NCBI GenBank assembly: GCA_937902925.1
Contig: CALFNN010000102.1
Span: 1 to 64,000 of the forward strand
DNA from: an uncultured Opitutaceae bacterium
GTDB taxonomy: Bacteria; Verrucomicrobiota; Verrucomicrobiia; Opitutales; Opitutaceae
DNA: 64,000 nucleotides
Reading direction: 5' to 3'
Under the pieces are notes generated by a model. That model was not told the origin of the DNA and searched no databases. It saw only the letters and a list, made by a program, of their open reading frames with translations. Below are positions 9,979 to 52,359 of the stretch, piece by piece. Every line of letters begins with the position of its first letter. The stretch's first letter is position 1. Position numbers and translations under genes: made by a program.

Positions 9979-12312
9979 TTAGAAGCGGAAGCTGGTGGTG
10001 AACTTCGCCTCGGTGCCCGGCGGATAGAAGAAGCCCGGCGTGAGCACGCGCTGGTCGAAGAGATCCGTGACGTTCAGCATGTAGGTGACGGTCGTTTTTC
10101 CGAAGGGCTGGTGACTGTAAGCGGCCATCGCGCCCCACTGGCTGAGTCCGGGCATGGAGACGTTTACGGCGGTGATCGCGCCGGTGGTGGCGTTGGCGGT
10201 GCCGTAGAAGCGGATGTAAGAGGGGTAATATTGATAGGTGAGACCGAGGCGGAGACCCTTGAGCTTGCCCTGGCTGAAAGCGTAGCGGAGGGCCGCGGCG
10301 CTCGTGCGCACGGGTCCGCCCTGACCGCCGGTCAAGCGCTGGCCAACCAGCGTGGGAGCGGAAACGTTGCGAACGATGCGGGTGTCGGTCCACCCGAGAT
10401 TGCCGAGGAGCGTGAGGTTGGCGCTGAGTTTGCCGCTGAGATAGACGCTCGCACCGCGCGTCTCGGATTCACCGCCGGGGACGAGCGCGGGCTTTGTGAG
10501 ATCGGCCCCGCCGGGGTTGTCGGGATTGCTCGTGGCTTCGTTTTTCTCTCGCGTGCGAAAGACCGACAGACCGTAGGAAATGCGCTGGCCGAACAGCACG
10601 CCCTTGAAGCCGGCTTCGCCGCCGCGCGCGGTCGTGTTGCCGAGGATTTCTCCGGTGTTGGCGTCGACAGTGGGGCTCGGGTTGAACGACGAACCGTAGC
10701 CGACGTAGCCAACGAGTTGATCGCCCACGATGTGGTAGTTGATGCCGGTGCTGAACGTGGTCTTCGTAAGATCGGACGTCGCCTCCTTGAGATTGACCTT
10801 GGTGGACAGCGGCTGCTGGCGCTTGAACGTGGCGAAATCGTCGCGCAGGGCGCCGAAGAGCACGAGGCGGTTGTCGAGCAGCGAAACGGTGTGGCTCAAC
10901 AAACCCCCGGCGTAGGAGCGGTAGAGATTGAAGGTCCCGCTGTCCTGCTCGGGGTAGGTGCCGGGATTGAACGCCGGATCCGGCAGCGACGCGAGCAGGT
11001 CGAGGTTGTAGATGTTCGGCTGCGTCCACGCCGTGAGCGGCGTGCCGGTGGGCAGAATGGCGGTGAGCGCGGCGTTCAGCGCGGCGCCGCTGAGCGTCCA
11101 GGTCTTTTGTTTCGTGTCGTCCTCGAACGCGTCGAACGTGAACAGCGTGCGCTGGTCGACGGCGCCGGTCTTGAAAAGATAGGTGAAGTCGATTTGCGAG
11201 CCGATCTGCCAGTCGTCGATCGTCTGCTCGGACATGGTGCGCGTGCCGCGCCAGTTGCGCGGCGTCGAGGAGGTCGCGACGAGATTCCAGTTGCCCGGCA
11301 CCGTGGGACCGAGACGCTCGAAGCTGCGCTTCGAGTAGCCGCCCGCGGCGCGCATGCTGAGTTGATCGCCGAAGCGGTGCTCGAAGGTGAGATAATAGGA
11401 ATCGTTGCCGCGATCGGTGCGGCGGTTCTTGCCGGCCTGATTGAACTTGAGGAGCCGGGTGGCGAGCGCCGGGTCGGGGATCGACGAGACGAGGCCCTGC
11501 GTGACGCCGGCGGCATCGACCCAGCGCGTGGCGTTGCCAAAATCGTTCATTACGCGATCGGTGTGCTCGAACTCGAAATTGAGCGTCGTGTCCGGCGTGA
11601 ACTTGTAGGTGAAGCTGCCGCTGAGGTTGAACGTGCGGTTATACCAGAAGTCGGTCGGCCGCTTCATGTCGTAGTAGGCGAGATCGAGGCGGTAGAAGAA
11701 TTTGTCGGAGAACAACGGCCCGGTGGCGAACGCATCCGTGCGCTGCGTGTCGTAGGTGCCAACCATGTAGCTGGCGCCGGCCTGGGCCCGCGGCTGCGGT
11801 TTCTTGGAAATGTAGTTGATGACGCCGCCGGGCGAGGTGCGCCCGAAGATGGCGGACGCCGGACCCTCGACGACCTCGACCCGGTCGATGCTGTTGCTGT
11901 CGGGCGCCTGCCGGCGGTAGAAACCGTTGCGAAAATAGGGCACGATGAAGCCGCGGGCCGTCGTGCCGCCGCCGCCGCCCTGGTTTTTGTCGCCGGAAAC
12001 GAAGTTGCTGACGAACGGCACCTGATCGTCGAGGTCGTAGAGCTGAAAGTCGTCGATGAATTCGCTCGTGAGCACCTGCACGGAGAACGGGAGATTGATT
12101 ATTTTCTGCGAGATGCGCGTGGCCGACGTGGTGTCGGTCGCGGTGTAGGTGCCGTCGTTTCGGCCGGTCACGTTGAAGACCGGGAGCGTGATCGTTTCGG
12201 CCGCTTCGTTCGGCGCGGCGGGCGGGGTCGTCTGGGCGGCGAGCGCGGGGGAGAGCTGCCAGGCTGCCAGCAGGGCAGTCGCCAGCATGGGACAGGGAAG
12301 GACAGGCTTCAT
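9979..12312 (-). CDS. TonB-dependent outer-membrane receptor
   Basis: A 777-residue receptor when started at the ATG at 12312, which gives a clean signal peptide ending near LSPALAAQ. An upstream in-frame start would overlap the divergent regulator and add about 76 unlikely residues. After the signal comes ITLPVFNVTGRNDGTYTATD, the TonB-box-like and strand region typical of this lineage. The plug domain follows (INLPFSVQVLTSEFIDDF, VEGPASAIFGRTSPGGVINY), then a 22-stranded-type barrel ending in the aromatic C-terminus FTTSFRF. Sequence style is that of the siderophore-type plug, but the operon of glycosidases suggests oligosaccharide uptake. First gene of the operon, divergent from the LacI regulator. 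Confidence 0.9.
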   Translation of the reverse strand: MKPVLPCPMLATALLAAWQLSPALAAQTTPPAAPNEAAETITLPVFNVTGRNDGTYTATDTTSATRISQKIINLPFSVQVLTSEFIDDFQLYDLDDQVPFVSNFVSGDKNQGGGGGTTARGFIVPYFRNGFYRRQAPDSNSIDRVEVVEGPASAIFGRTSPGGVINYISKKPQPRAQAGASYMVGTYDTQRTDAFATGPLFSDKFFYRLDLAYYDMKRPTDFWYNRTFNLSGSFTYKFTPDTTLNFEFEHTDRVMNDFGNATRWVDAAGVTQGLVSSIPDPALATRLLKFNQAGKNRRTDRGNDSYYLTFEHRFGDQLSMRAAGGYSKRSFERLGPTVPGNWNLVATSSTPRNWRGTRTMSEQTIDDWQIGSQIDFTYLFKTGAVDQRTLFTFDAFEDDTKQKTWTLSGAALNAALTAILPTGTPLTAWTQPNIYNLDLLASLPDPAFNPGTYPEQDSGTFNLYRSYAGGLLSHTVSLLDNRLVLFGALRDDFATFKRQQPLSTKVNLKEATSDLTKTTFSTGINYHIVGDQLVGYVGYGSSFNPSPTVDANTGEILGNTTARGGEAGFKGVLFGQRISYGLSVFRTREKNEATSNPDNPGGADLTKPALVPGGESETRGASVYLSGKLSANLTLLGNLGWTDTRIVRNVSAPTLVGQRLTGGQGGPVRTSAAALRYAFSQGKLKGLRLGLTYQYYPSYIRFYGTANATTGAITAVNVSMPGLSQWGAMAAYSHQPFGKTTVTYMLNVTDLFDQRVLTPGFFYPPGTEAKFTTSFRF

Positions 12313-39562: not shown

Positions 39563-39659
39563 GCGCCACGCCGGTCGGAATTGCGGGATGGAGGCGGATG
39601 CGCTGCGCAACGGCTGGAAACTGAGCCGGGCGAAACGGCGCCAAATGGAAAAAATTCCC

Positions 39660-39690
39660 TGTTCGGTTTCCATGACGGCGGCTGTTAGGG
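39660..39690 (+). promoter_or_regulatory. shared two-box promoter motif, copy 1
   Basis: TGTTCGGTTTC, 14 nt, TTAGGG. It ends 11 nt before the ATG of the first membrane sigma gene, overlapping the ribosome site GGGAGGAAAT. The weakest -10-like box of the set. Confidence 0.5.
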
Positions 39691-39701
39691 AGGAAATCAC
39701 G

Positions 39702-41129
39702 ATGAGCGATGATGCCGAACTGCTCCGCCGCTACGCCGACACGCGCGACGAAACGGCATTCGCCGAACTCGTGCGCCAGCACCTCGGGCTCGTTTACCAT
39801 GCGGCGCTGCGACAGTGCGGCGGCGATGCACACCGGGCGGAGGACGTGGCGCAAATGGTGTTCGCTGATCTCGCGCGGAAGTCGGAGAAACTGTCGCGCC
39901 GACCGGTGCTCGCCGGCTGGCTCTACACCAGCACGCGCTACGCCGCCGCGCAGGCCGTGCGAACCGAGGCGCGAAGGCAGGCGCGCGAGCGGGAGGTTCA
40001 TGCGATGAACCAACTTCTGTCGGAAAACAATTCCGAGCCCGCCTCCGAGTGGGAGCGGCTGCGGCCGGTCATCGATGATGCGCTGCATGCGCTCGGTGAA
40101 CGCGACCGCGAGGCGGTGTTGTTGCGGTTCTTTGAAGCTCGGGGGTTCGCGGAGGTGGGCCGCAGGCTGGCCGTGAGCGAGGACGCCGCCCGGATGCGCG
40201 TGGAGCGGGCGCTCGAAAAGATGCGGACCACCCTCAGCCGGCGCGGTGTGATTTCGACGACGACGGCTTTAGCCGTTGCACTCACAAGTCAAACCGGTGC
40301 CGCCGTGCCCGCGGGTATCGCGGCGAGCGTCACGGTCGCCGCCTTGGCGAGTGTTGTGCCTGTCACCGTTGCGGCCGCGACGGTGGGCGTCTTGAGTTTC
40401 ATGAGCACCACAAAATTCATCGCCGGGACGGCCGGTCTCATCGCGCTCGTCGCGGCAGGGACGGCCATCTCCGGGCTTCGGGCCACGCGCAGCGCCACTC
40501 TCATGGCGGCATCATTGCGCAGTGAACACGAGGCGATGCGCACCCAGCTTTCGGAACTAAGAAGCCGGCTGCGACAGATTGAGGAAAGCCTCGCAGCAAC
40601 GCAAAAAGGGACGGCGGGGGCACGCGTGGAGTGGGCCGACACAAACAGCGCACTCCCGCGGCCTGCCGAAGCCCCGAATCCTCCTCCGGCGTCAGAGGGC
40701 GGTCCGGCTGCAATCGAATCGGCCAAGGGCGCGCTGGCCCACATCGGCAACCTCGGGCCCAATCCGCGCGTCGAAAACAGCGGACTCGATGCAGCCGCCG
40801 TCGCCGCGATTCGAGAGTGGATGAAACGGGACCCGAAAGCTGCACTCCAGTGGGTCGCATCGGTTCCGGCCGAGCGCAACCAGCAGCTGCACACGATCGA
40901 AGCTTTCATCGCCATCGAGGAGGACGGCGACCCCGAACTCGCCTTCCTGCTGGCGAACAGCATCGGTCTCGAGACTTCGCGCGTGGCGCGGCTCGTGGAT
41001 GTCCTGAAAGTGTGGGCGCCGCGTGATCCGGCCGCCGCCGGCGCCGCGGTGCAGACGGCCGACGTTTCCGAGGAGAAGCGCGCGTTCCTCCTCAAGAAAG
41101 TGGAAATCGAGTCGCGGCCGCGGCGATAG
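39702..41129 (+). CDS. membrane sigma factor 1 with C-terminal helical repeats
   Basis: A 475-residue protein, chosen start with GGGAGG 11 nt upstream. Sigma-2 (DAELLRRYADTRDETAFAELV onward) and sigma-4 (ERDREAVLLRFFEARGFAEVG) form an ECF-like core of about 180 residues. Then comes a conserved Ala-rich stretch with SQTGAAVPAGIAASVT, SFMSTTK and a transmembrane helix (FIAGTAGLIALVAAGTAISG). A coiled coil and an Ala/Pro linker lead to helical repeats with RDPKAALQW and RDPAAAGAA, a pattern common in Verrucomicrobia. It has no dedicated membrane partner gene. Transcription control from a membrane-bound state is inferred. Confidence 0.8.
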   Translation: MSDDAELLRRYADTRDETAFAELVRQHLGLVYHAALRQCGGDAHRAEDVAQMVFADLARKSEKLSRRPVLAGWLYTSTRYAAAQAVRTEARRQAREREVHAMNQLLSENNSEPASEWERLRPVIDDALHALGERDREAVLLRFFEARGFAEVGRRLAVSEDAARMRVERALEKMRTTLSRRGVISTTTALAVALTSQTGAAVPAGIAASVTVAALASVVPVTVAAATVGVLSFMSTTKFIAGTAGLIALVAAGTAISGLRATRSATLMAASLRSEHEAMRTQLSELRSRLRQIEESLAATQKGTAGARVEWADTNSALPRPAEAPNPPPASEGGPAAIESAKGALAHIGNLGPNPRVENSGLDAAAVAAIREWMKRDPKAALQWVASVPAERNQQLHTIEAFIAIEEDGDPELAFLLANSIGLETSRVARLVDVLKVWAPRDPAAAGAAVQTADVSEEKRAFLLKKVEIESRPRR

Positions 41130-41182
41130 CTGGGTTTCCGACCACCGCCGGTCCGGGCGGCGATGGATTCCGCGCGATTGTT

Positions 41183-41213
41183 TGTTCGGTTTCGGCCTCG
41201 GTGCCTGCTATCG
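41183..41213 (+). promoter_or_regulatory. shared two-box promoter motif, copy 2
   Basis: TGTTCGGTTTC, 14 nt, CTATCG, ending 7 nt before the ATG of membrane sigma 2. The short leader leaves little room for a separate ribosome site; GGGTGA is the only candidate. Confidence 0.55.
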
Positions 41214-41220
41214 GGTGAAC

Positions 41221-42588
41221 ATGCCGACCGATGCCGAGTTGCTCCGCGCTTACGCCGACGAGAAGTCCGAGTCGGCGTTCGGCGAACTCGTCCGCCGACA
41301 CGTGAATCTTGTTTACTCGGTCGCGCTGCGCCAGTGCGGTGGCGACGCGCACCTCGCCGAGGATGTCACGCAGCACGTGTTCACCGATCTCGCGCGCAAG
41401 GCGCGGTCGCTTTCCGGCCACGCGGTGCTCGGCGGCTGGCTTTTCCGCAGCGCGCAATTTGCCGCGAGCGACGTCGTGCGCGCCGAGCGCCGGCGTCGCG
41501 TCCGCGAACAGGAGGCCTCAGCCATGCAGGAACTGTCCCGACCCGCGGGCGATGCCGACTGGCAAAAGCTCGCTCCCGTGCTCGACCGGGCGATCGGTGA
41601 ACTCGCCGCGCCCGACCGCGACGCCGTCGTGTTGCGGTTTTTCGAGGGCCGGCCGTTTGCCGAAATCGGCGCGACGCTGCGACTGACCGAGGACGCGGCC
41701 CGAATGCGCGTGGAGCGGGCGCTCGACAAACTGCGGGTGGCCCTCGGGCGGCAGGGCATCATGTCGACGGCGGCGGCGCTGGGCGTCGCGCTGGCAAACC
41801 AGGCTGTCGCGACCGCGCCGGCGGGGATAGCCGCGAGCGTCACCGGCGCGGCGATGGCTGGCATTGCTGCCGGCGGAGGAATCGCCGCGGCGGCAACTTT
41901 CATGAGCATCACCAAAATGCAGCTTGGCATGACCGGCGTGCTCGTTGCTGCCATGGTTGCCGGATTGACTGTTCAACAGCGCGCCAACGCGCGATTGCGG
42001 GAAGAAATCGACTTGCTGCACAAAGAATTTCCGCCGGTTGCCCAAGTCTTGGCCGACAACGAGGCTCTGACACGGGCCGTCGCGGACGTTGCTCTGCTGT
42101 GGAAGTCGTCCGCAGAACTGGCGAGTTTGCGTCGATCCAAGGAATCGATGGAAAATTCGCTTCGAGATTTGGAGGTCATGGATGCGAGGAACGAACGCAT
42201 CCGAAAATCGCTGGAGGATCTTGCGAGCCGACCCTTGCAGGGAGCGGTATTTGATGAATCCGCAGTGGATCGACCGCCGAAGCCTGCGTTTCAGTTTCAG
42301 CCGATTGTGCCGCGGGAGTTATATCGGGCAGGGGTCGACGTGGAGGTCGTGCTTCAAATGACGATCGATACCGACGGGAGCGTGCGGAGCGTGTCCACCT
42401 TGCGCGCCACGCCCGAGGAATTTGGCCCCGTAGTCGCTGCGCAGGCGAGGCGATGGGAGTTTGCACCGGCGCAGAAGGACGGGCAGGCGGTCAACGCCCG
42501 GATCGTGGTGCCAGTCCGAATTCCGATGGGCCGGCGCGATGGCGCACTCACGACGCCGAGGCGACCGGAGAAACTCAACTGGTTCTGA
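41221..42588 (+). CDS. membrane sigma factor 2 with TonB C-terminal domain
   Basis: A 455-residue protein. The ECF-type sigma-2/sigma-4 core (DAELLRAYADEKSESAFGELV; LAAPDRDAVVLRFFEGRPFAEIG) is followed by ANQAVATAPAGIAASVT, TFMSITK and a transmembrane helix. A coiled coil (ARLREEIDLLHKEF to SLEDLASRP) separates it from a C-terminal TonB-type domain of about 90 residues: PRELYRAGVDVEVVLQMTI, DTDGSVRSVS and AAQARRWEFAPAQKDGQAV. The coiled-coil and TonB part is visibly AT-richer than the sigma part. The partner gene starts 4 nt after the stop. If the C-terminus is periplasmic, it could contact TonB-dependent receptors directly. Confidence 0.8.
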   Translation: MPTDAELLRAYADEKSESAFGELVRRHVNLVYSVALRQCGGDAHLAEDVTQHVFTDLARKARSLSGHAVLGGWLFRSAQFAASDVVRAERRRRVREQEASAMQELSRPAGDADWQKLAPVLDRAIGELAAPDRDAVVLRFFEGRPFAEIGATLRLTEDAARMRVERALDKLRVALGRQGIMSTAAALGVALANQAVATAPAGIAASVTGAAMAGIAAGGGIAAAATFMSITKMQLGMTGVLVAAMVAGLTVQQRANARLREEIDLLHKEFPPVAQVLADNEALTRAVADVALLWKSSAELASLRRSKESMENSLRDLEVMDARNERIRKSLEDLASRPLQGAVFDESAVDRPPKPAFQFQPIVPRELYRAGVDVEVVLQMTIDTDGSVRSVSTLRATPEEFGPVVAAQARRWEFAPAQKDGQAVNARIVVPVRIPMGRRDGALTTPRRPEKLNWF

Positions 42589-42592
42589 CTCC

Positions 42593-43360
42593 ATGCGGCA
42601 TATCACCGGCCAACTACTTTTGGTTTGGATCGTCGTGGCGGCGGTTGGGCTGGCGGCGCTCGCGGTGCAAAGGCTGACCAATGTTGCGTTGCAACGAGAG
42701 GTTGTCCGTTTGCGCGAATCGAATCGGGAATTGGTTCAACCGCTCGCCGAGAACCGCCGGCTCAAAGCCCTGCAGATTTCCGATTCGCAACGGAAGACTT
42801 TGAGCGCCGATCAGGCCGAAGTTGAGCGGCTGCGGGCCGAGGTCGCGAATATTTACGCGACCATTCAGGCCAGAATGACAAGTCGCCTCGTGAGCCAGGC
42901 ATTGACCGCCCGCGGCTGGAGAAACATCGGGACTGCGACGCCGGGCGCTGCCGTGGAAACGATTCTTTGGGCGGCTGCCGGCGGCGATGTCGATTTGCTG
43001 ACGGAACTTATGGACTACTCGCCGGAAGCCCGGGCGGAAGCCGAGGGACTCTATGCGGATTTGCCCGAAGCGGTCCGGGCGAAATATGCCTCGCCTGAGC
43101 AGCTCATTGCCAGCCTCACCGCGAAGGATGTGCCGCTCACCGCGGTGAACTTCACGGGCGGCAACGGCAACGGTGAGAAGATGTCAGTGCAGATACATTT
43201 TTTTAATGACGATGGCGCCCCGACGTTGAACGAGATATCGTTGAGCATGGTTCGTTCGCCCGGTGGATGGCGACTGATGGTGCCGCCGAGCGCCGTTGTG
43301 AAATACCGTGCGATGTTGAAAGGGGCGCCAGCGGGCGTGGAAAATAAGATCGCAAGGTAG
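42593..43360 (+). CDS. membrane-anchored coiled-coil partner protein 1
   Basis: A 255-residue protein. One N-terminal helix (LLLVWIVVAAVGLAALAVQ), then a long heptad region (LQREVVRLRESNRELVQPLAENRR, DQAEVERLRAEVANIY). The C-terminal domain carries WRNIGTATPGAAVETILWAA, GDVDLL, LPEAVRAKYASPEQLIASL and ends GGWRLMVPPS. The same domain is fused to membrane sigma 3 and found in two other proteins here. It is translated right after sigma 2, so a sensor or regulatory partner is likely. Visibly lower GC than its surroundings. Confidence 0.7.
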   Translation: MRHITGQLLLVWIVVAAVGLAALAVQRLTNVALQREVVRLRESNRELVQPLAENRRLKALQISDSQRKTLSADQAEVERLRAEVANIYATIQARMTSRLVSQALTARGWRNIGTATPGAAVETILWAAAGGDVDLLTELMDYSPEARAEAEGLYADLPEAVRAKYASPEQLIASLTAKDVPLTAVNFTGGNGNGEKMSVQIHFFNDDGAPTLNEISLSMVRSPGGWRLMVPPSAVVKYRAMLKGAPAGVENKIAR

Positions 43361-43397
43361 CGCGGGCGATAGGCCACCATGGGCTTGGCCGCTTTTT

Positions 43398-43428
43398 TGT
43401 GCGGTTTCGGCGGTGGCGACTGCCATAG
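43398..43428 (+). promoter_or_regulatory. shared two-box promoter motif, copy 3
   Basis: TTTTTTGTGCGGTTTC, 14 nt, CCATAG, ending 12 nt before the ATG of membrane sigma 3. A T-run precedes the first box, as in copies 4, 6 and 7. Confidence 0.6.
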
Positions 43429-43440
43429 TGCATCGCCTCC

Positions 43441-44934
43441 ATGCAGGAAGATGCCGAACTCCTCCGTCGTTACGCCGACGAAAAATCGGAGGAGGCGTTT
43501 GCCGAGCTCGTGCGGCGGCACCTCAACCTCGTCTATTCGGTGGCGCTACGGCAGGTCGCGGGCGATACGCACCTGGCCGAGGATGTCGCGCAACGGGTTT
43601 TTACCGCGCTCGCCCGCAAGGCCACGGCGCTGGTGGAGCGGCCGGCGCTCAGCGGATGGCTTTACCGGAGCGCGCATTTTGCCGCCAGCGACGTCGTCCG
43701 CGTCGAGCGGCGGCGTCGCGCCCGCGAACAGGAAATGCACGCCATGAATTCACTGCTGACCGATTCCGCACCGCCGGCCGACTGGGAGAAAGTGCGTCCG
43801 GTGCTCGACATCGCGATCGCGGAGCTCGACGAACGCGACCGCGACGCCGTCGCGCTGCGCTTTCTCGAGGGCCGGTCGTTTGCCGAAGTCGGAGGACGGT
43901 TGCGGCTCACCGAAAACGCCGCGCGGATGCGGGTGGAGCGGGCGCTCGACAAGCTGCACGCGGCGCTCGCCGGACGCGGGATCACGTCGACCGCTGCGGC
44001 GCTCGGCGTCGCGCTCGCGAACCAGGCCGCCGCGACCGCGCCGGCCGGCGTCGCGGCCAGCGTGACGGGCGCGGCACTCGCGGGTGCCGCTGCGAGCGGA
44101 AGCGTAGGCGCGTGGCTGGCTTTTGTTACCATGAGTAAAATCAACGTTGGAATCGCGGGTGCAATCGTCGTGGCCTTGCTGGTGACTGGCGTCTGGCAGC
44201 TGCGGGCTGATCGGGAGTTGCGCACGGAGCTGGGGACGTTGCGCGCCGGCGGCGACGATTTAGGGCGACTGCAAACGAAAAGCAGGGACTTGAATGCGGC
44301 GCTCGGCAAACTGGGAGTGAAGAATCCCGAGGCTGACGACCTCGCGCGCTTGCGCAGCCGTGCCGCGATTCTCACCGCCCGGCCGCCGGGAGTCGTCGAC
44401 GCGGAGCTGAAGCCCGCCACGACCTGGCAGAATGTCGGACGCGCGACACCGGAGGCGGCGGTCGAGACGTTTCACTGGGCGCTGGTCCACGGTGACCTCG
44501 ATGCGGCGGCGCAGTTCGTCGTTTTCAGCGACGACACGAAGGAAAATCGCGAGGCATTCATGGCGCATTTCGGCGAGGCGGTGCGGGCGAAATACCGGAC
44601 ACCGGAGCGTTTGGTGGCGGCGGCGGTCTTCGGTGCGGGCGAGAACACGGTGGCATTCGCCGGCTGGCGTCCGGACGACGCCTTTCAGGTGCTGGGCACG
44701 GATGACCATGTCGGCGGCGACGGTGTCAGGTTTGGCCAGGTCAGGGTGAGGCTGTGGTATCGCACCGCGAGCGGCGAGCGTGAGAGCGACAGCCGGTGGC
44801 AATCCTCGCCGGGAGGTTGGGCCATGGGGGCGTTCTATCTGAGCTCGGGAGCCCGCCGGAGTGACGACGCCTTGGCGGCGGTGCTGAGCCAGATCGATCC
44901 CGCGAGCGGCGAACGTCGGGCGGTCAAGAAATAA
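43441..44934 (+). CDS. membrane sigma factor 3 fused to the partner-type C-terminal domain
   Basis: A 497-residue protein. Sigma-2 about 5-95, sigma-4 about 115-177 (LDERDRDAVALRFLEGRSFAEV). The Ala-rich segment ANQAAATAPAGVAASVTG (193-210), FVTMSK (228-233) and a transmembrane helix (INVGIAGAIVVALLVTGVW) follow. After a coiled coil, residues 325-480 hold the domain TWQNVGRATPEAAVETFHWA, GDLDAAAQF, and FGEAVRAKYRTPERLVAAA. The same module appears without a sigma core in the adjacent genes, which marks a recombining domain set. A separate partner gene follows 26 nt later. Confidence 0.82.
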   Translation: MQEDAELLRRYADEKSEEAFAELVRRHLNLVYSVALRQVAGDTHLAEDVAQRVFTALARKATALVERPALSGWLYRSAHFAASDVVRVERRRRAREQEMHAMNSLLTDSAPPADWEKVRPVLDIAIAELDERDRDAVALRFLEGRSFAEVGGRLRLTENAARMRVERALDKLHAALAGRGITSTAAALGVALANQAAATAPAGVAASVTGAALAGAAASGSVGAWLAFVTMSKINVGIAGAIVVALLVTGVWQLRADRELRTELGTLRAGGDDLGRLQTKSRDLNAALGKLGVKNPEADDLARLRSRAAILTARPPGVVDAELKPATTWQNVGRATPEAAVETFHWALVHGDLDAAAQFVVFSDDTKENREAFMAHFGEAVRAKYRTPERLVAAAVFGAGENTVAFAGWRPDDAFQVLGTDDHVGGDGVRFGQVRVRLWYRTASGERESDSRWQSSPGGWAMGAFYLSSGARRSDDALAAVLSQIDPASGERRAVKK

Positions 44935-44960
44935 GCGGTGATGCCCAACGCCGAGGAAAC

Positions 44961-45755
44961 ATGATCCGGAAATCGATGAAGATTGCCGCGGTGGGATTGA
45001 TGCTCGCCGGCGGGATGGCGGGCACGGTGCTCTTGCAGCTGGACAACCGCCGGCTGCGGCAGCGAATCGCGGAAGCCCGCGGGCAAAAGGAGCGGAGTGA
45101 TCGGCTGCGCGATGCCAACCGGCAGGCGCAAGAGCTGCTCGACCGGGCACGCACCGATGGCGATGACGGCAAGAGGGCGATTCATGCGGACGTCGTGCGA
45201 TTGCGAGAGGAGGTGGCCGGGTTGGAAAAACGCGCGGAGGAGACGAGCGCCAAACTGCGGGCGCAACACCAGGCCGACGTGGAAGCGCTCGCCAGCAACC
45301 GCGATCCACAGCGGGGACTCGTGCGCCTGGAGAATTTTCAAGCAGCCGGACGGAGCACCCCGGCGGCGACGTTCCAGACCTTCGTGTGGGCGGCCATGAA
45401 GGGCGAGGACGGGACGCTCGCCGGGATGATCGCGCTGCCCGACGCCGCACAGGAGAGAGCCGAGGCGGTCGTGGCGGCGTTGCCGGAGGCGGTGCGGACA
45501 AAATATTCCACGCCGGAAAAACTGGCGGCGCTGTTCTTCGCCGACGCGTTGACGGGCAAAACGGCCGCACAGATCGTCGGCGTGACGTCGCCCGATGCGC
45601 AGCATGCCATCGTGACGGTTCACGGACTGGCCGACCAGGAGCAGAACGTGCCGATGCAGTTGGGGGCGGAGGGCTGGCAAATCGTCGTGTCGGAAGGAAT
45701 GGTGGACAAGCTGGCGAGTTGGGCGCGGGGCGGGCCGCCGCCGGCGGGGAAATAG
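44961..45755 (+). CDS. membrane-anchored coiled-coil partner protein 2
   Basis: A 264-residue protein with an N-terminal helix (IAAVGLMLAGGMAGTVLLQ), a coiled coil (NRRLRQRIAEARGQKERSDR, VVRLREEVAGLEKRAEETS) and the shared domain: AAGRSTPAATFQTFVWAA, ALPEAVRTKYSTPEKLAALF, then a beta-rich end with GAEGWQIVVSEG. It is homologous to the proteins at 42593 and 49751 and to the C-terminal half of membrane sigma 3. A role in signalling with sigma 3 is inferred from position only. Confidence 0.7.
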   Translation: MIRKSMKIAAVGLMLAGGMAGTVLLQLDNRRLRQRIAEARGQKERSDRLRDANRQAQELLDRARTDGDDGKRAIHADVVRLREEVAGLEKRAEETSAKLRAQHQADVEALASNRDPQRGLVRLENFQAAGRSTPAATFQTFVWAAMKGEDGTLAGMIALPDAAQERAEAVVAALPEAVRTKYSTPEKLAALFFADALTGKTAAQIVGVTSPDAQHAIVTVHGLADQEQNVPMQLGAEGWQIVVSEGMVDKLASWARGGPPPAGK

Positions 45756-45765
45756 CTCGTTTTTT

Positions 45766-45796
45766 TGTGCGGTTTTCGGATCAGTGCCAGCTATAG
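45766..45796 (+). promoter_or_regulatory. shared two-box promoter motif, copy 4
   Basis: TTTTTTTGTGCGGTTTTC, 13 nt, CTATAG, ending 6 nt before the ATG of membrane sigma 4. The clearest copy of both boxes. Confidence 0.62.
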
Positions 45797-45802
45797 GGGT
45801 GC

Positions 45803-47548
45803 ATGGCCCTGCTGGAAGACACGGAGTTGCTCCGACGCTACAAGGATGAGAAATCGGAGGACGCGTTTGGCGAACTCGTGCGCCGGCACGTCGGTCCGGT
45901 GTATGCGTTTTCGCTGCGGCGGGTCGGCGGAGATGCGCATCTCGCGGAGGATGTCACGCAGGTCGTCTTCGCCACGCTGGCGCGAAAGGCGGCGTTGCTC
46001 GCGGAGCGGCCCGTCCTTGGCGGCTGGCTTTGTCGGACGGCGCATTTCGCCGCCCGGGATGTCGTGCGGACCGAACGTCGGCGCCGGGCGCGCGAACAGG
46101 AGGCCCAAACCATGCTCGAATCCTCAACCGACGAAGCCGCGGCAAGCATCGACTGGGAAAAAGTCCACCCAGTGCTCAACGAGACGCTGGGCGAACTAAA
46201 CGACGACGATCGCGACGCGGTGTGGCTGCGTTTCTTTGAGGGCCGTTCCTTCGCGCAAGTGGGAGAGCGGCTGCGGCTGAACGAAAACGCCGCGCGGATG
46301 CGCGTGGAGCGGGCGCTCGACAAGTTGCATGCCGCGCTGGCCCGGCGGGGCGTGACATCGACGGCGGCGGCGTTGGGGCTCGCGCTGCCAAACCAGGCGG
46401 CGGCTACCGCGCCGGCCGGACTCGCGGCCGGTGTGACAGGTGCGGCGCTGGCGGGAGCGGGCGGCGTTGGTGTCGCGACGGGGATTTTGACTTTCATGAG
46501 CACAACCAAAGTTGTTTCCGGAGTGGCCGCCGCGGTCGCCTTGCTGGCGATTTTCTCGGCCGTTCGCGAATCGCAAAGCGCCGACAATTCGGTCGCGGCA
46601 CTGAAGGCTGTCACCGCCCAGCGCGACGAGCTGCAGGGGCGCGTGCAAGTGTTGGAAAAGCGGGCCAGGGAATCCGGCGACGTCGCGGACTCGGCCCAGC
46701 GCGAGCTGGCGGCGCTGCGCGTTGTGGCGGCAACGCCGGGCGAGAACGCGGCCGCGCGCGCCGCTGCATGGCAGACGACAAGTCCGGTCAACTTTGCGCT
46801 CGATCATCCGGAGGCGCGCGCGGCGTTTGTCGCGCAGGAGATGGCGCGGGCGCGGGCGAAGTTCGACCGGTTCTTCCGGCAGGCCGGGCTTTCGGCCGGG
46901 GAGCAGGACAGGTTTCTCGACGTGCTGAAGAATTTCGCGGAGGCGAAGCTCGACCTGACGGCATCGGTCCGGGCGCAGGGTTACGGGCCCTACAATGTGC
47001 CGCAAGACCCGGAAGCGTTGCGGGCGTTGTTCAAGGTGGATTCCGAGGTGGACGGGGAATTCATGGGCAACTTGCGCACGCTGCTCGGCGACGAGCGCTT
47101 CCGGCAGTTCACCGCCTATCGAAAGAGTATTCCGGAGATCAATGCGGCGGACCAGCTCGCGGGGCTGCTTTACGCTGGCGATACGCCGCTCACGCCGGCT
47201 CAGGCGCGGCAACTGGTCCAGGTATTGCAGGAAAATCGATTCGACAAACGAGCCACACCGTCGCCGACAAACATGTTCAACGGCGCCTTCATCCCCGACT
47301 CGGCGAACCAGGTGGCGATGGTGCAATCGAACCTGATGTTCGGTGACATCATGATGCCGGGGATCGACTGGCGCGCGCCGGTGACCGACGCGGCCGTCGC
47401 GCGAGCGGCCTCGATCCTCGCGCCCGCACAAATCTCCGCCCTGCGGCAGATGCAGGCGCAGCAGGCGGCGCAAATGTTGCTCGCCCCGCCGCCGCCGAGG
47501 CAGGCGGACGCCTCGGCGTCCCGGACCAAGCCGGCCGGTGGCGGGTAG
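45803..47548 (+). CDS. membrane sigma factor 4 with unrecognised helical C-terminal domain
   Basis: A 581-residue protein. The ECF-type core (DTELLRRYKDEKSEDAFGELV; LNDDDRDAVWLRFFEGRSFAQVG) is followed by PNQAAATAPAGLAAGVTG, TFMSTTK and a transmembrane helix (VVSGVAAAVALLAIFSAV), then a coiled coil. The C-terminal about 250 residues are mainly helical (QEMARARAKFDRFFRQAGLS, RTLLGDERFRQFTAYRKSI, TPLTPAQARQLVQVL). This resembles generic metal- or heat-shock-type helical sensors but is not assignable. The next gene, 62 nt on, is a small TonB-domain protein. Confidence 0.78.
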   Translation: MALLEDTELLRRYKDEKSEDAFGELVRRHVGPVYAFSLRRVGGDAHLAEDVTQVVFATLARKAALLAERPVLGGWLCRTAHFAARDVVRTERRRRAREQEAQTMLESSTDEAAASIDWEKVHPVLNETLGELNDDDRDAVWLRFFEGRSFAQVGERLRLNENAARMRVERALDKLHAALARRGVTSTAAALGLALPNQAAATAPAGLAAGVTGAALAGAGGVGVATGILTFMSTTKVVSGVAAAVALLAIFSAVRESQSADNSVAALKAVTAQRDELQGRVQVLEKRARESGDVADSAQRELAALRVVAATPGENAAARAAAWQTTSPVNFALDHPEARAAFVAQEMARARAKFDRFFRQAGLSAGEQDRFLDVLKNFAEAKLDLTASVRAQGYGPYNVPQDPEALRALFKVDSEVDGEFMGNLRTLLGDERFRQFTAYRKSIPEINAADQLAGLLYAGDTPLTPAQARQLVQVLQENRFDKRATPSPTNMFNGAFIPDSANQVAMVQSNLMFGDIMMPGIDWRAPVTDAAVARAASILAPAQISALRQMQAQQAAQMLLAPPPPRQADASASRTKPAGGG

Positions 47549-47571
47549 ATGGGGCCGGTGAAACGATTTTT

Positions 47572-47602
47572 CGTGCGATTTCGAGGATGGCGGGTGCTGG
47601 TG
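47572..47602 (+). promoter_or_regulatory. shared two-box promoter motif, copy 5, at a non-sigma gene
   Basis: TTTTTCGTGCGATTTC, 14 nt, CTGGTG, ending 8 nt before the ATG of the small TonB-domain protein. Less perfect, but the same layout outside a sigma gene suggests a small regulon. Confidence 0.45.
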
Positions 47603-47610
47603 TGGTGAAG

Positions 47611-48165
47611 ATGTGGCGGATTCGACTGCTGTTTCGTTTCGCGCTGATCGGCGGGCTGGAGGCAGCCTGTCGGCATGTGGCGTCCTCGCGGACGCCCGAG
47701 GGCACGAGTTCGATCAAGTTCGTCCAGCCGCCGTCGCCGCCGCCGGCCAAGAACAAGGGGACGGCAACGCGGATGGAATCGCCGGAGGAGGCCGTCAACG
47801 CGGAGCCGATCCTGCCGCTGGCGACACCGGTTTGTCCGCCGGCGGCGCTGGCAGCGCATGCGGGAACCGCGATCGTCGGCGTGCGGATCACGGTCGGCAC
47901 GGACGGACGGGTATCGGACGTGGGGACGAGTCTTGCGAGTCTCTCCACGCCGACACCGTTTGCCGCGGCGTTTCGCGACGCGGTGGAAGTGGCGGTGGCG
48001 CAGTGGCGATTCAAACCGGGTGAAGTCCTGCATCTCGAAACCGTGCATGACCCCGGCGGCGACTACCGGCGCGTGGCGAGCCGGGAAAAGGTCGGGTGGA
48101 CGTTCGACGTTGAATTTACGTTCAACGCCACCGGTGACGTGGTGGCAGGGCTGCCGAAGATGTAG
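47611..48165 (+). CDS. small TonB C-terminal-domain protein
   Basis: A 184-residue protein. A short hydrophobic N-terminus (IRLLFRFALIGGLEAAC) and a Pro-rich stretch (FVQPPSPPPAKNKG) precede a TonB-like domain: AHAGTAIVGVRITVGTDGRV, AFRDAVEVAVAQWRFKPGE. This matches the energy-transducer TonB layout in miniature. An in-frame start at 47587 exists, but would place the promoter-like motif inside the gene. The stop codon lies inside the 29-bp inverted repeat that follows. Confidence 0.7.
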   Translation: MWRIRLLFRFALIGGLEAACRHVASSRTPEGTSSIKFVQPPSPPPAKNKGTATRMESPEEAVNAEPILPLATPVCPPAALAAHAGTAIVGVRITVGTDGRVSDVGTSLASLSTPTPFAAAFRDAVEVAVAQWRFKPGEVLHLETVHDPGGDYRRVASREKVGWTFDVEFTFNATGDVVAGLPKM

Positions 48166-48239
48166 GGCGGGGTCGCCGAACCCCGCCGTCTGGGAAACGT
48201 TCGCGCCGTCACGGCGGGGTTCGGCGACCCCGCCCTACA
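48161..48239. repeat. 29-bp perfect inverted repeat, REP-like
   Basis: The arm 48161-48189 (TGTAGGGCGGGGTCGCCGAA, then CCCCGCCGT) is matched exactly by its reverse complement at 48211-48239, with a 21-nt spacer. The first arm contains the stop codon of the preceding gene. There is no T-run, so it may act as an mRNA-stabilising or REP-type element, or a bidirectional terminator. The hairpin at 30748-30768 shares its GGCGG..TC.CCGAACC core. Confidence 0.85.
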
Positions 48240-48259
48240 AGATGCGGCCAAAGATTTTT

Positions 48260-48290
48260 TGTGCGATCTTTCCGGCGGCGGGTGCTAGGG
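48260..48290 (+). promoter_or_regulatory. shared two-box promoter motif, copy 6
   Basis: TTTTTTGTGCGATCTTTC, 12 nt, CTAGGG, ending 11 nt before the ATG of membrane sigma 5. It begins 20 nt after the large inverted repeat. Confidence 0.5.
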
Positions 48291-48301
48291 GTTGGAACGC
48301 C

Positions 48302-49741
48302 ATGATGGACGACACCGAACTGCTCCGCCGCTACGCCGCGAATCGCGTGGAGGATGATTTTGCGGAGCTTGTCCGCCGGCACCTGAATCTCGTTTACTCG
48401 GCGGCGTTGCGGCAGTTGAACGGCGACGCGCATCTCGCGCAGGATGTCACGCAGCTCGTGTTCGCCGATCTCGCGCGGAAGGCCGCGACGGTGGCGAATC
48501 ATCGCGTGCTGGCGGGATGGCTATTCACGAGCACGCGATTCGCCGCGGCGAAGGCCGTGCGCGGCGAACAGCGCCGGCGCGCGCGCGAGGCGGAGGCCCA
48601 GCTTATGGAGGAACTTATCTCTCCCGATGATCCGGCGGCCCGGCTTGACTGGGCGCGCGTGCGCCCGGTGCTCGATGAAGTCCTGGGCGAACTCGGAGAC
48701 GCGGATCGCGAGGCGATCCTGCTGCGCTTCTTCGAGGGCCGGGATTTTGCGAGCGTCGGCGCGAAACTCAGCGTCAACGACAACACCGCGCGGATGCGCG
48801 TGGAGCGCGCGCTCGACAAACTGCGGACGCAACTCGCGCGGCGGGGCGTCACGTCGACCAGCGCGGCGCTGGCCGCGGCGCTGGCGAACCAGGCCGTGGT
48901 GGCAGCGCCGGTGGGACTGGCGGCGGCGGTGACGGGGGCTGCGATCGCCGGGGGCGGAACCGCGACGGCGACGACCGCGGCGGGCGGCGGGCTGGTGGCG
49001 ACTTTTATGAGCATGTCGAAATTACACGTCGGGATCACCAGCGCGCTCGCCGTGGCGGGCGCGACGGGTTTGGTGGTGCAGGCGCAGTCGAACTCGGCGC
49101 TGCGCGACGAGGTTGCAGGTCTTCGCCAGCAAAACGCCGCCATGGCGACGGTGCAGGCGGAAAATCAACGGCTCGCGCGCACGGCGGCGGAAGTGGCGGA
49201 GATGCGCGGCGACGACGCCGAACTCGCGCGACTCGGCGACGAGGCCGCGGCCCTGAAAATGCGGATGCAGGAGGTTGCAAAAGTGGAGGCCGCGCGCCGG
49301 GCGGCGGCCGAGACCAACGCTGAGCGTGTCGACGTTACAAAGCTCGACCAGCAGCCGGTTCCGAAATTCCAGGTCCGGCCACAATATCCGCCGGAGCTGA
49401 AGGCCGCGGGAATCACTGGCAAGGTGATGGTGGAGTTTATTGTCGATCAGAATGGTAATGTGCAAAACGTAACGGTGGCGAGAACGCCAAGATCCGAGGG
49501 TGAAACCGTGGTGATGTCCGATTTTACGATTGCAACCGATGCCGGCGGGCGGAGTGGTTCGGCAGACGCGGAGGCGCAGCGCGCGTTCGAGGCGGCGGCC
49601 ATTGAAGCCGTGAGCAAATGGAAATTTGAAGCCGGGAGGAAAAGGGGCCGCCAAGTGCCTACGCATATGCAAACGCCGATTATATTTTCTTTAAAAGAAG
49701 ATGGCGCGCCGAGGCCGGCACCGGATTCGTCCGCGCCGTAA
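48302..49741 (+). CDS. membrane sigma factor 5 with TonB C-terminal domain
   Basis: A 479-residue protein; ATG at 48302 or the next codon. Sigma-2 about 5-95 and sigma-4 about 118-180 (GDADREAILLRFFEGRDFASVG). Ala-rich ANQAVVAAPVGLAAAVTG (195-212), TFMSMSK (234-240), transmembrane helix 241-260, coiled coil 262-340. The TonB domain spans about 354-465 and is textbook: RPQYPPELKAAGITGKVMVE, VDQNGNVQNVTVARTP, AAAIEAVSKWKFEAGRKRGR. The DNA of the TonB part is clearly AT-richer than the sigma part. A partner gene follows 9 nt later. This is the strongest case of a sigma-TonB fusion. Confidence 0.85.
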   Translation: MMDDTELLRRYAANRVEDDFAELVRRHLNLVYSAALRQLNGDAHLAQDVTQLVFADLARKAATVANHRVLAGWLFTSTRFAAAKAVRGEQRRRAREAEAQLMEELISPDDPAARLDWARVRPVLDEVLGELGDADREAILLRFFEGRDFASVGAKLSVNDNTARMRVERALDKLRTQLARRGVTSTSAALAAALANQAVVAAPVGLAAAVTGAAIAGGGTATATTAAGGGLVATFMSMSKLHVGITSALAVAGATGLVVQAQSNSALRDEVAGLRQQNAAMATVQAENQRLARTAAEVAEMRGDDAELARLGDEAAALKMRMQEVAKVEAARRAAAETNAERVDVTKLDQQPVPKFQVRPQYPPELKAAGITGKVMVEFIVDQNGNVQNVTVARTPRSEGETVVMSDFTIATDAGGRSGSADAEAQRAFEAAAIEAVSKWKFEAGRKRGRQVPTHMQTPIIFSLKEDGAPRPAPDSSAP

Positions 49742-49750
49742 CACGGACTC

Positions 49751-50554
49751 ATGCCCGCGCTCCGCTGGTTGTCCGCCCTGCTGCTCGTGCTGGCCCTTGC
49801 GGCTGGCGCGGCGGTGTGGTTGCAGCGGCAGGAGGCGGCGCGCATGCGCACGGAGATGGCTTCGCTGCGCGACGACAGCCGCGAGCTCGCAAAACTGCGC
49901 GCCGAAAACCAACGCCTCGCCGCGGCGCAGCCGTCCGAGACGGAACTGGCGCGTCTGCGCGCCGATCATGCGGCGGTGCTGCGGATGCGGGGCGAAATCG
50001 AGAGTCTCGCCGCGCGCACGCCAAAAATCGCGGGAGCGGGGACTGCGACCGAGGCGCGACCGGACGCGGCCGATCCCATGGTTAATGCCGGCAAGGCGGC
50101 ACCGGCGGCGGCCGCGAAAACCGTGCGCTGGGCGATCAACGGCGGCGCCCCGGACGTGCTGGCCGCGACGCTGGCGGTCGCGCCCGGCGGTCGCGAGATG
50201 CTGCAAACTGCGTTCGACGGATTGCCGCCGGAACGACGGGCGCGATACGGGACGCCGGAGCGGATGCTGGCCGAGTTGTTGTGCGCCACGACGCAGAATT
50301 CGGGCAGCGACCAAGTGCTCGTCCGCGAGGAGTTGCCGGGCGTGCAGGGCGGCGGATTTGAATCGATGCCGGCGGATGGCGCGGACTTCCGGACGATTCA
50401 CACGCGCACGCAGGGCGCGGACGGTCGCGTGCGGGACAGTTACCAGGTTTTCCAATCGACCCCCGACGGCTGGCGCTGGGTGGTGTCGCCGGGGCTCGTT
50501 TTGAAGCGACTGGTGGAGACCGGCCTCAGGCCGGCGCCCTCGGCGGCGAAGTGA
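49751..50554 (+). CDS. membrane-anchored coiled-coil partner protein 3
   Basis: A 267-residue protein. An N-terminal helix (LRWLSALLLVLALAAGAAVWL), a coiled coil (QEAARMRTEMASLRDDSREL, KLRAENQRLA) and the shared domain: AAAKTVRWAINGGAPDVLAA, LPPERRARYGTPERMLAELL, ending TPDGWRWVVSPGLVLKRL. It follows membrane sigma 5 by 9 nt, presumably in one transcript. The three partner proteins diverge strongly from one another outside these motifs. Confidence 0.7.
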   Translation: MPALRWLSALLLVLALAAGAAVWLQRQEAARMRTEMASLRDDSRELAKLRAENQRLAAAQPSETELARLRADHAAVLRMRGEIESLAARTPKIAGAGTATEARPDAADPMVNAGKAAPAAAAKTVRWAINGGAPDVLAATLAVAPGGREMLQTAFDGLPPERRARYGTPERMLAELLCATTQNSGSDQVLVREELPGVQGGGFESMPADGADFRTIHTRTQGADGRVRDSYQVFQSTPDGWRWVVSPGLVLKRLVETGLRPAPSAAK

Positions 50555-50610
50555 GCGAAGCACAGATGCGCGGGCCCGGCTGGCGAGGATTCCGCCACGC
50601 CGCGTTTTTT

Positions 50611-50655: not shown

Positions 50656-52359
50656 ATGACCGAAGACGCCGAACTGCTCCGCCGCTATGCCGAGGAAAAA
50701 TCCGAGCGGGCGTTTGCCGAGCTGGTGGAGCGGCATCTCAATTTTGTCTACGGCGGCGCGCTGCGCCGGTTGGGAGGGGATGCGCAGCTGGCGGAGGATG
50801 TCACGCAGCAGGTGTTCACCGCGCTTGCGCGCGCCGCGGCGGCGCTTTCCCGCCGGCCGGTCCTGACCGGCTGGCTTTACACCACGACACGTTTTGCGTC
50901 GGCGCAGGCCGTCCGCACCGAGCGGCGGCGGCGAACCCGCGAACAGGAGGCCCACACCATGAACGAGCTTTCCGCCGATTCCCCACCGCCGGCCGACTGG
51001 GAACGCCTGCGTCCGGTGCTCGACGACACGATGGACGAGTTGGACGAACGCGACCGCGAGGCGGTGTTGCTGCGGTTCTTCGAGGAGCGGTCGTTTGCCG
51101 ACATCGGGGCGAAGCTGGAGTTGAACGAAAACGCCGCGCGGATGCGGGTGGAACGGGCCCTCGACAAGATGCACGCGCTGCTGGCGCGGCGTGGCATCAC
51201 GTCGACCATCGCGGCGCTCGCGCTCGCGCTGGCGAGTCAAGCGGGTGTCGCGGCGCCGGCGGGGCTGGGGGCTACCGTGACCGGTTCGGCGCTGGCCACT
51301 GCGGCAGCGGGCTCGGGCGCGGCGGCGGGTCTGGCCTATTTGACTTTTATGAGCACCACCAAGATCGCAGTCGGCACCGCTGTCGGCGTCATCGCCCTGG
51401 CCATCGGCGGGGCGATTTATCAGGCGAACGAAAATCGCGCGAGCCGCGCGGCGTTGGCCGCCGCCGAGCAGGAACGGGACGAGGCCCGCGGGCAGATCCG
51501 GAAACTGCAGGGCGAACTGGAGGCGCAGATTGCCCGCGTGCGGGCGGCCGACGACGACAATGCGCGGTTACTGGCGGCAATCCGGACGACCGCCCCGACG
51601 CGGGCCGCGCAGGTGGCGCAGGCGGCGGAGGCGAACGCGCCGGTCACGCAAGACGCCGTCCAGACGCGTTACAACAAGGCGAAGGAGCTGGCGCGCAGCG
51701 GGGATTGGGCAGCGGCGCTGTCGGAGTTTCTGTGGTGCTACGACGAGGGAATGGTTCGCGTGCAGAGTTTCGTTGGCGTTCGCGGCAGCTTTTTATTGAG
51801 CGACATCGGTCGGATGGCGAAGAATTATCCGCCGGCGCTGGCAGCGCTGCAGGAACGCCGTGACCGGGCCGAGCAGAGAATGCTGGCCAGCCCGACCGAT
51901 CGCGACGCCACGCGGGACTATGCCTCGATCAACGCGGCGCTGGGCGAGGACGCGCAGACCCTGAAGGTGTTCGACCAGTTGTCCGCCGACGATCCGCGCC
52001 GCACCGCGCTCGGCTCGCTCCTGAGCGTTTACGATTTGCTGGTGGACGCGCAGCGCTATGGCGACGCGGCCCGGGCCGTGCCGTATGACCGGGCGCTGTC
52101 ACTTTTCACGTCACTGTCGCGCACACCGCAAACGGCCAGTCTGCCCGAGTCGGCCACGGCCAGCCTGCGACGCAGCGTGGTCGACCGTGCGTCGAAGAAC
52201 GTCGAAGTGCTCGCCGGCAGCGGCGACGTGACCCATGCCGGTGCGCTGGTGGAAAAGGTGCTTGCCTACGACAGCTCGGATGCGACGAAGGCGGTGTTGC
52301 AGCAGCATCTCATCCGCGCCGGCCATCCGGAGTTGATGTCGGTTCAGCCAAAGCCGTAG
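50656..52359 (+). CDS. membrane sigma factor 6 with TPR-like C-terminal region
   Basis: A 567-residue protein, GGAAG about 8 nt upstream of ATG. The ECF core (DAELLRRYAEEKSERAFAELV; LDERDREAVLLRFFEERSFADIG) is followed by ASQAGVAAPAGLGATVTG, TFMSTTK and a transmembrane helix (IAVGTAVGVIALAIGGAIY). A coiled coil (ALAAAEQERDEARGQIRKLQ) leads to a helical region with RYNKAKELARSGDWAAALSE and further helix pairs, likely TPR-like. It has no intact partner gene downstream. Confidence 0.8.
   Translation: MTEDAELLRRYAEEKSERAFAELVERHLNFVYGGALRRLGGDAQLAEDVTQQVFTALARAAAALSRRPVLTGWLYTTTRFASAQAVRTERRRRTREQEAHTMNELSADSPPPADWERLRPVLDDTMDELDERDREAVLLRFFEERSFADIGAKLELNENAARMRVERALDKMHALLARRGITSTIAALALALASQAGVAAPAGLGATVTGSALATAAAGSGAAAGLAYLTFMSTTKIAVGTAVGVIALAIGGAIYQANENRASRAALAAAEQERDEARGQIRKLQGELEAQIARVRAADDDNARLLAAIRTTAPTRAAQVAQAAEANAPVTQDAVQTRYNKAKELARSGDWAAALSEFLWCYDEGMVRVQSFVGVRGSFLLSDIGRMAKNYPPALAALQERRDRAEQRMLASPTDRDATRDYASINAALGEDAQTLKVFDQLSADDPRRTALGSLLSVYDLLVDAQRYGDAARAVPYDRALSLFTSLSRTPQTASLPESATASLRRSVVDRASKNVEVLAGSGDVTHAGALVEKVLAYDSSDATKAVLQQHLIRAGHPELMSVQPKP

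Follow-up and report, generated by a model that had tools for sequence, protein, structure and literature searches.

Sigma factor-TonB_C fusions in the Opitutaceae: members of a family of putative membrane-tethered ECF sigma factors with exchangeable C-terminal domains

The stretch of DNA analyzed here, 64,000 nucleotides from an uncultured Opitutaceae bacterium (contig CALFNN010000102.1; henceforth the window), encodes two proteins in which an extracytoplasmic function (ECF) sigma factor is joined to a C-terminal TonB_C domain. These fusions recur in related genomes, are followed by a conserved partner gene, and belong to a larger family of sigma proteins that share their N-terminal part and a promoter-like motif and differ in their C-terminal domain. 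With a probability that we put at roughly 0.55, they would be membrane-tethered, self-amplifying ECF sigma factors, which combine a periplasmic sensor with a separately anchored partner and are released by proteolysis. The initial annotation of the window had recognized the fusions, and had missed the downstream partner, the shared motif, the Trp-Phe ends of many fusions and the wider family with its swappable domains.

Domain architecture of the fusions

The coordinates and the sigma-TonB_C make-up that had been proposed for the two proteins are borne out by Pfam, NCBIfam and structure matches. Their features are as follows:

41221-42588 (+), fusion 1 (ECF2): ECF sigma, Ala-rich linker, membrane segment, coiled coil, TonB_C, C-terminal Trp-Phe
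41287-41736 (+), fusion 1, sigma regions 2 (41287-41496) and 4 (41590-41736), from Pfam
41917-41973 (+), fusion 1, predicted membrane segment with a conserved Lys before it, from hydropathy and paralog alignment
42310-42519 (+), fusion 1, diverged TonB_C, 35.8 bits, from Pfam and search of solved structures
42580-42585 (+), fusion 1, C-terminal Trp-Phe
48302-49741 (+), fusion 2 (ECF5): ECF sigma, linker, membrane segment, coiled coil, TonB_C with loop insertion
48368-48826 (+), fusion 2, sigma regions 2 (48368-48577) and 4 (48680-48826), from Pfam
48848-49018 (+), fusion 2, uncharged Ala-rich linker with conserved Pro203 and Gly205, a family-wide feature
49022-49318 (+), fusion 2, predicted membrane segment (residues 241-259) followed by coiled coil (to about 339), from hydropathy and AlphaFold
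49376-49696 (+), fusion 2, TonB_C, from Pfam, solved-structure search and Foldseek

In each protein, sigma region 2 (PF04542) and sigma region 4 (PF04545/PF08281) match above cut-off and region 3 is lacking, which identifies the two as ECF sigma factors. Fusion 1 (455 residues) scored 36.4 bits with Sigma70_r2 and 36.6 bits with Sigma70_r4, its TonB_C match covering residues 364-433, while the corresponding sigma scores for fusion 2 (479 residues) were 31.7 and 31.9 bits. The TonB_C profile (PF03544, gathering score 24.6 bits) matched fusion 2 with 61.8 bits, the match being split between residues 359-395 and a remainder that lies beyond a loop of about 30 residues. Among the NCBIfam models, TIGR02937 matched both fusions above its cut-off and TIGR01352 matched fusion 2; no subfamily model above its own cut-off was present among the matches listed. 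When the C-terminal parts of both fusions were searched by sequence against solved structures, essentially TonB was retrieved, and the core motifs of this domain, namely PxYP, G-V and W-F-P-G, are retained. A Pfam scan of the fusion proteins yielded no match to FecR (PF04773), and no SxxxH-type motif was seen by eye in their membrane segment.

The AlphaFold model of fusion 2 (mean predicted local distance difference test score 66, predicted template modeling score 0.28) is usable for local folds only. It displays the sigma part, an Ala-rich linker with two short helices of low confidence, a single continuous helix (residues 245-339) that spans the membrane segment and the coil, and a TonB_C fold. 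In Foldseek searches this model matched ECF sigma factors and TonB, with chain D of the FoxA-TonB complex (6i97_D) as the best TonB match (TMt 0.76).

Conservation of the fusions and their downstream partner

Close relatives of the fusions are found in Opitutaceae and other Verrucomicrobia metagenome-assembled genomes. A survey of the combined architecture, as had been called for in the initial annotation, covered 100 genomes of the family and recovered it in about 23 (our own count, from the hit list and domain checks). Across 289 genomes of the phylum, matches extending to the end of the TonB_C domain were confined to this family (E-values up to 1e-50), whereas the sigma-linker-membrane cassette itself extends to other families.

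In all 17 loci examined outside the window, as well as after both window copies, the next gene codes for a member of the same partner family. It is intact in 15 of the 17, and shortened or shifted in frame in L167 and L168. The partner-type genes in the window are:

42593-43360 (+), partner 1, 4 nt past fusion 1: N-terminal membrane anchor, coiled coil, NTF2-like (DUF4878-like) domain
49751-50554 (+), partner 2, directly past fusion 2: membrane anchor, coiled coil, NTF2-like domain
44961-45755 (+), partner-type gene behind the paralog ECF3: anchor, coil, NTF2-like domain

The N-terminal anchor is the sole strong hydrophobic stretch of the partners, and is preceded by Lys and Arg with few acidic residues, a charge pattern that would be expected of an N-in/C-out protein. 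Their coiled coil resembles that of the fusions in its pattern, and the model of their alpha/beta domain is closest, albeit weakly, to NTF2-like proteins (best E-value 8.8e-3). The strict pairing suggests that fusion and partner may be in contact. Evolutionary distances between partners track those between the sigma parts (r about 0.5) and the linker and membrane parts (r about 0.7) of the fusions, which lends weak support to such contact, although shared ancestry alone could yield the same correlation. No correlation was found between TonB_C and partner distances over all 17 pairs (r 0.04-0.10; 0.35 without fusion 1). Thus, coupled change of these two domains is not seen across all pairs, and a tight contact between them is not indicated.

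A paralog family with exchangeable C-terminal domains

A family profile built from the six long sigma proteins encoded in the window was run against the genome from which the window comes (own genome, G000, 6.0 Mb) and detected about 24 members, including the six in the window, which are flanked by ligA and a moxR-type gene. Common to the family are the first 260 or so residues, comprising the sigma regions, the uncharged Ala-rich linker, a Lys and the membrane segment. The Lys is present in about 80% of the paralogs and is invariant among the aligned fusions. Beyond this cassette the C-terminal domains vary, and include TonB_C (twice), the ExbD periplasmic domain, SLBB, DUF4878/NTF2-like domains (L063 and others) and further ones without assignment. 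The paralogs in the window, other than the fusions, are listed here with the position of the promoter-like motif described below:

39702-41129 (+), ECF1, shared cassette with a different C-terminal domain; motif at about 39659-39687
43441-44934 (+), ECF3, cassette with a partner-like NTF2-like C-terminal domain; motif at 43397
45803-47548 (+), ECF4, different C-terminal domain; motif at 45765
50656-52359 (+), ECF6, different C-terminal domain; motif at 50610

In one member (L086:2216-3865, +), the sigma part shares 87% identity with that of fusion 1, yet the C-terminal domain is NTF2-like, a sign of recent domain exchange. A single origin of the TonB_C branch was considered and rejected, as its bearers do not form one clade in the sigma-domain tree and the supported branches force at least 3 changes. 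The simplest reading of this pattern is that swapping or gene conversion has taken place between cassettes and C-terminal domains.

Several members elsewhere illustrate the range of these domains. L076:1887-3101 (-), on contig C80 of G000, combines the sigma-membrane cassette with a periplasmic domain of the ExbD/TolR type (32.6 bits against a cut-off of 25.4), and L071:13212-14501 (+), on C102, combines it with SLBB, a domain that is known to occur in proteins of polysaccharide export. In L075:1448-2824 (-) the cassette is followed by several hydrophobic segments and a Gly/His-rich stretch; we presume that this C-terminal part, which has no Pfam match, could be NfeD-like.

A promoter-like motif shared by the family

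Nearly every family gene, in the own genome as in others, is preceded by the motif TTGTKCGRTTT-N14-GCTA(T/G). Upstream of the fusions it takes the form:

41182-41211 (+), TTGTTCGGTTT-N14-GCTAT, 9 nt ahead of the fusion 1 start codon
48259-48287 (+), TTGTGCGATCT-N14-GCTA, 14 nt ahead of fusion 2, 26.7 bits

Exact copies of the -35 part occur four times in the window against 0.14 expected by chance. The whole own genome contains 19 such copies, 15 of them ahead of family genes, compared with 9 for a reversed-pattern control. The other four (C16, C36, C90 and C102:101169) lack a -10 part and a convincing gene start, and were set aside as chance occurrences. Using a scoring matrix trained on other genomes, we found the motif at 16 bits or more before 20 of 23 family genes of the own genome, most members scoring 22-36 bits, while the best score in control chunks was 13.5 bits. 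In most family genes the -10-like GCTA lies only about 10-15 nt ahead of the ATG (in the window, for the motifs at 41182, 43397, 45765, 48259 and 50610), which predicts very short leaders. Self-activation is common among ECF sigma factors, and the shared motif suggests that the family genes could likewise be autoregulated.

Predicted membrane topology

The most likely arrangement places the sigma part in the cytoplasm and the TonB_C domain in the periplasm. Two considerations point to the periplasm: the swapped-in domains of known location are periplasmic, as is well established for the ExbD periplasmic domain, SLBB and TonB_C itself, and the NTF2-like domain sits behind a single N-terminal anchor in the partners. 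A layout of sigma factor, one membrane segment and C-terminal domain fits the IutY type of protein discussed below, with the number of crossings taken from homology and hydropathy only.

Proposed mechanism

In the mechanism that we favor, sigma regions 2 and 4 would reside in the cytoplasm, tied to the inner membrane by one helix, and a coiled coil of about 80 residues would carry the TonB_C domain into the periplasm as a sensor or docking domain. There the fusion would act together with the anchored NTF2-like partner encoded downstream, probably through their related coiled coils. A signal, or the loss of a protecting contact, would expose the fusion to a periplasmic carboxy-terminal protease, a site-2 protease would cut next, and the liberated sigma factor would bind the motif before its own and other family genes, amplifying its own operon. 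For the fusions that end in Trp-Phe, this end is likely to be a ligand of a PDZ-type protease or partner, conceivably the first of these proteases. Such an end is found in 15 of 27 fusions, in none of 54 other family members and in no other gene among the 265 in the compared regions. Both S41 and M50 proteases are encoded in the own genome.

Precedents exist for release by proteolysis. IutY of Pseudomonas putida (ECF243) unites sigma factor, transmembrane segment and FecR in one protein of cell-surface signaling, and is released by proteolysis, Prc taking off the periplasmic part and RseP cutting within the membrane (PMC9249621, PMC8999054). This indicates that the design of a tethered sigma factor released by proteolysis is known to work. 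In the Fox system a receptor domain shields the regulator from proteolysis, which offers a usable model for the fusions (PMC11637429).

Several observations weigh against the proposed mechanism. Proteolytic release would follow from analogy, and S41 and M50 proteases are near-universal, so that their presence says little. Fusion 2 lacks the Trp-Phe end, as do most proteins closely related to it. The silence of the tethered sigma factor is presumed only, since no anti-sigma domain was recognized in the fusions, and another sigma factor could read the motif. Lastly, the linker has hydropathy maxima of 1.3-2.0 against 1.75-2.2 for the membrane segment, a point taken up below as the main weakness of the argument.

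Alternative readings

As to what the TonB_C domain responds to, the alternative that survives best, and falls only a little short of even odds, is that it senses something other than receptors, most likely the partner or the cell wall and envelope, the sigma factor thereby reporting the state of the envelope. This is consistent with the strict pairing with the partner gene, and with the likewise envelope-related character of other sensors in the family (SLBB, ExbD and NTF2-like domains); however, the lack of correlation between TonB_C and partner distances noted above speaks against it.

The initial annotation had instead proposed that the TonB_C domain contacts outer-membrane receptors at their TonB box and passes their state directly to the sigma factor. 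We consider this unlikely, with the fold alone favoring it: the core motifs are retained, the best structural match is a TonB bound to the receptor FoxA, and the modeled continuous helix of about 95 residues would extend far into the periplasm. Receptors are plentiful, with 71 Plug-domain loci in the own genome. However, a conserved receptor neighbor was not found by sequence clustering (rather than Pfam scan) in the 17 outside loci, and a receptor adjoins the fusion in only one of them (L159, from a sequence match to the window receptor, its neighbors not having been scanned with Pfam). The receptor gene at 9979 in the window, 29 kb away, has a Plug match and no STN domain, and no STN-domain receptor was found near the fusions. 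Receptor genes could also be rejected as promoter targets, for none of 60 upstream regions among the 71 Plug loci carries the family motif (best score 16.2 bits, against the 22-36 bits of most family members). Moreover, sister proteins with the same cassette bear other domains, and TonB_C occurs in many other protein types of the own genome. Slightly more doubtful still is a composite version, in which a constant, self-activated sigma-membrane cassette with exchanged periplasmic sensors would in its TonB_C branch read the TonB boxes of loaded receptors, the partner acting as co-regulator.

A different topology appears rather improbable to us. Were the Ala-rich linker to cross the membrane as a second helix, the TonB_C domain would end up in the cytoplasm and might regulate the sigma factor intramolecularly. 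The hydropathy of the linker is near that of the membrane segment, and in fusion 2 exceeds it (2.01 against 1.75), though hydropathy by itself does not decide between one and two crossings. Against this stand the types of C-terminal domain and the homology with the partners, both of which favor the periplasm, the conserved Pro and Gly and the polar Asn, Gln, Ser and Thr residues of the linker in the paralog alignment, and the modeled linker helices, which are two, short and of low confidence.

A chance or assembly fusion without function can be dismissed: although both domains are frequent in the own genome (58 Sigma70_r2 and 36 TonB_C matches), the architecture, motif and partner gene recur across the family, and the same single-frame architecture in relatives from other genomes rules out a frameshift or assembly artefact.

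Comparison with known systems

ECF sigma factors as a rule receive their signals from a separate anti-sigma protein, and the present architecture is best seen as a variation on known sigma factors whose C-terminal regulators span the membrane. Of the precedents, IutY comes closest, as a single chain in which an N-terminal ECF sigma factor is followed, as predicted for the fusions, by one membrane segment and a C-terminal periplasmic domain (PMC9249621, PMC8999054). IutY differs in its FecR-like periplasmic domain and in acting with the receptor IutA, whereas the fusions have a coiled coil and TonB_C, show no match to FecR, and lie next to a separate NTF2-like partner gene and to no receptor. 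The idea of a one-protein counterpart of the FecA-FecR-FecI relay, as had been put forward for the fusions, is therefore not new, although what it was based on, a conserved fusion with a likely periplasmic TonB_C domain, holds. The FecI-FecR-FecA and FoxI-FoxR-FoxA systems are comparable in that an ECF sigma factor may in both cases be reached by a signal from the periplasm, but comprise three proteins with FecR and STN domains, neither of which occurs in the fusions or their immediate neighborhood.

TonB itself shares with the fusions the TonB_C fold, a predicted single membrane helix and, as we infer, the N-in/C-out orientation. In the fusions the sigma factor replaces its short cytoplasmic tail and the coiled coil its proline-rich stretch, and a role in energy transfer would be putative at most. 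Membrane segments are probably also present in Planctomycetes ECF groups with C-terminal domains. In this related superphylum, ECF57 and other groups resemble the fusions in joining an ECF sigma factor to a long C-terminal extension (PMC8999054), but differ in its WD40-type repeats. The actinobacterial groups ECF48, ECF52 and ECF53 (for example, SCO4117) are alike in that the sigma factor carries one or more membrane segments and a domain outside the cytoplasm (PMC8999054). They differ in their zinc-finger anti-sigma part, other outer domains and phylum, and TonB_C is not described there. In the part of the literature covered, no account of a sigma-TonB_C fusion came to light, and an earlier mention may exist elsewhere.

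About 24 genes of one genome are devoted to sigma factors that seemingly carry their own anchor and an exchangeable outer domain, and the shared motif renders their regulation and targets directly testable. Were the TonB_C branch to read receptor state, it would link outer-membrane uptake to transcription in a new way; otherwise, TonB_C would be a general periplasmic sensor or docking domain.

Other TonB-related genes

The small stand-alone TonB-domain gene that had been placed between the fusions is present (47611-48165, +), but its likeness to TonB_C is sub-threshold (14.4 bits with Pfam; TIGR01352 E-value 0.0012). A homolog lies upstream of the fusion in one of 7 related loci (L084). The own genome has 5 FecR matches, all away from the fusions. 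FecR genes at C20:33328 and C42:28712 adjoin Plug receptors whose STN matches are weak, and at these two loci ordinary systems of cell-surface signaling coexist with the fusions. A further cluster (C47:22881-40666) encodes proteins in which TonB_C is repeated up to four times, and includes a frame of 681 residues with STN-like and TonB_C matches.

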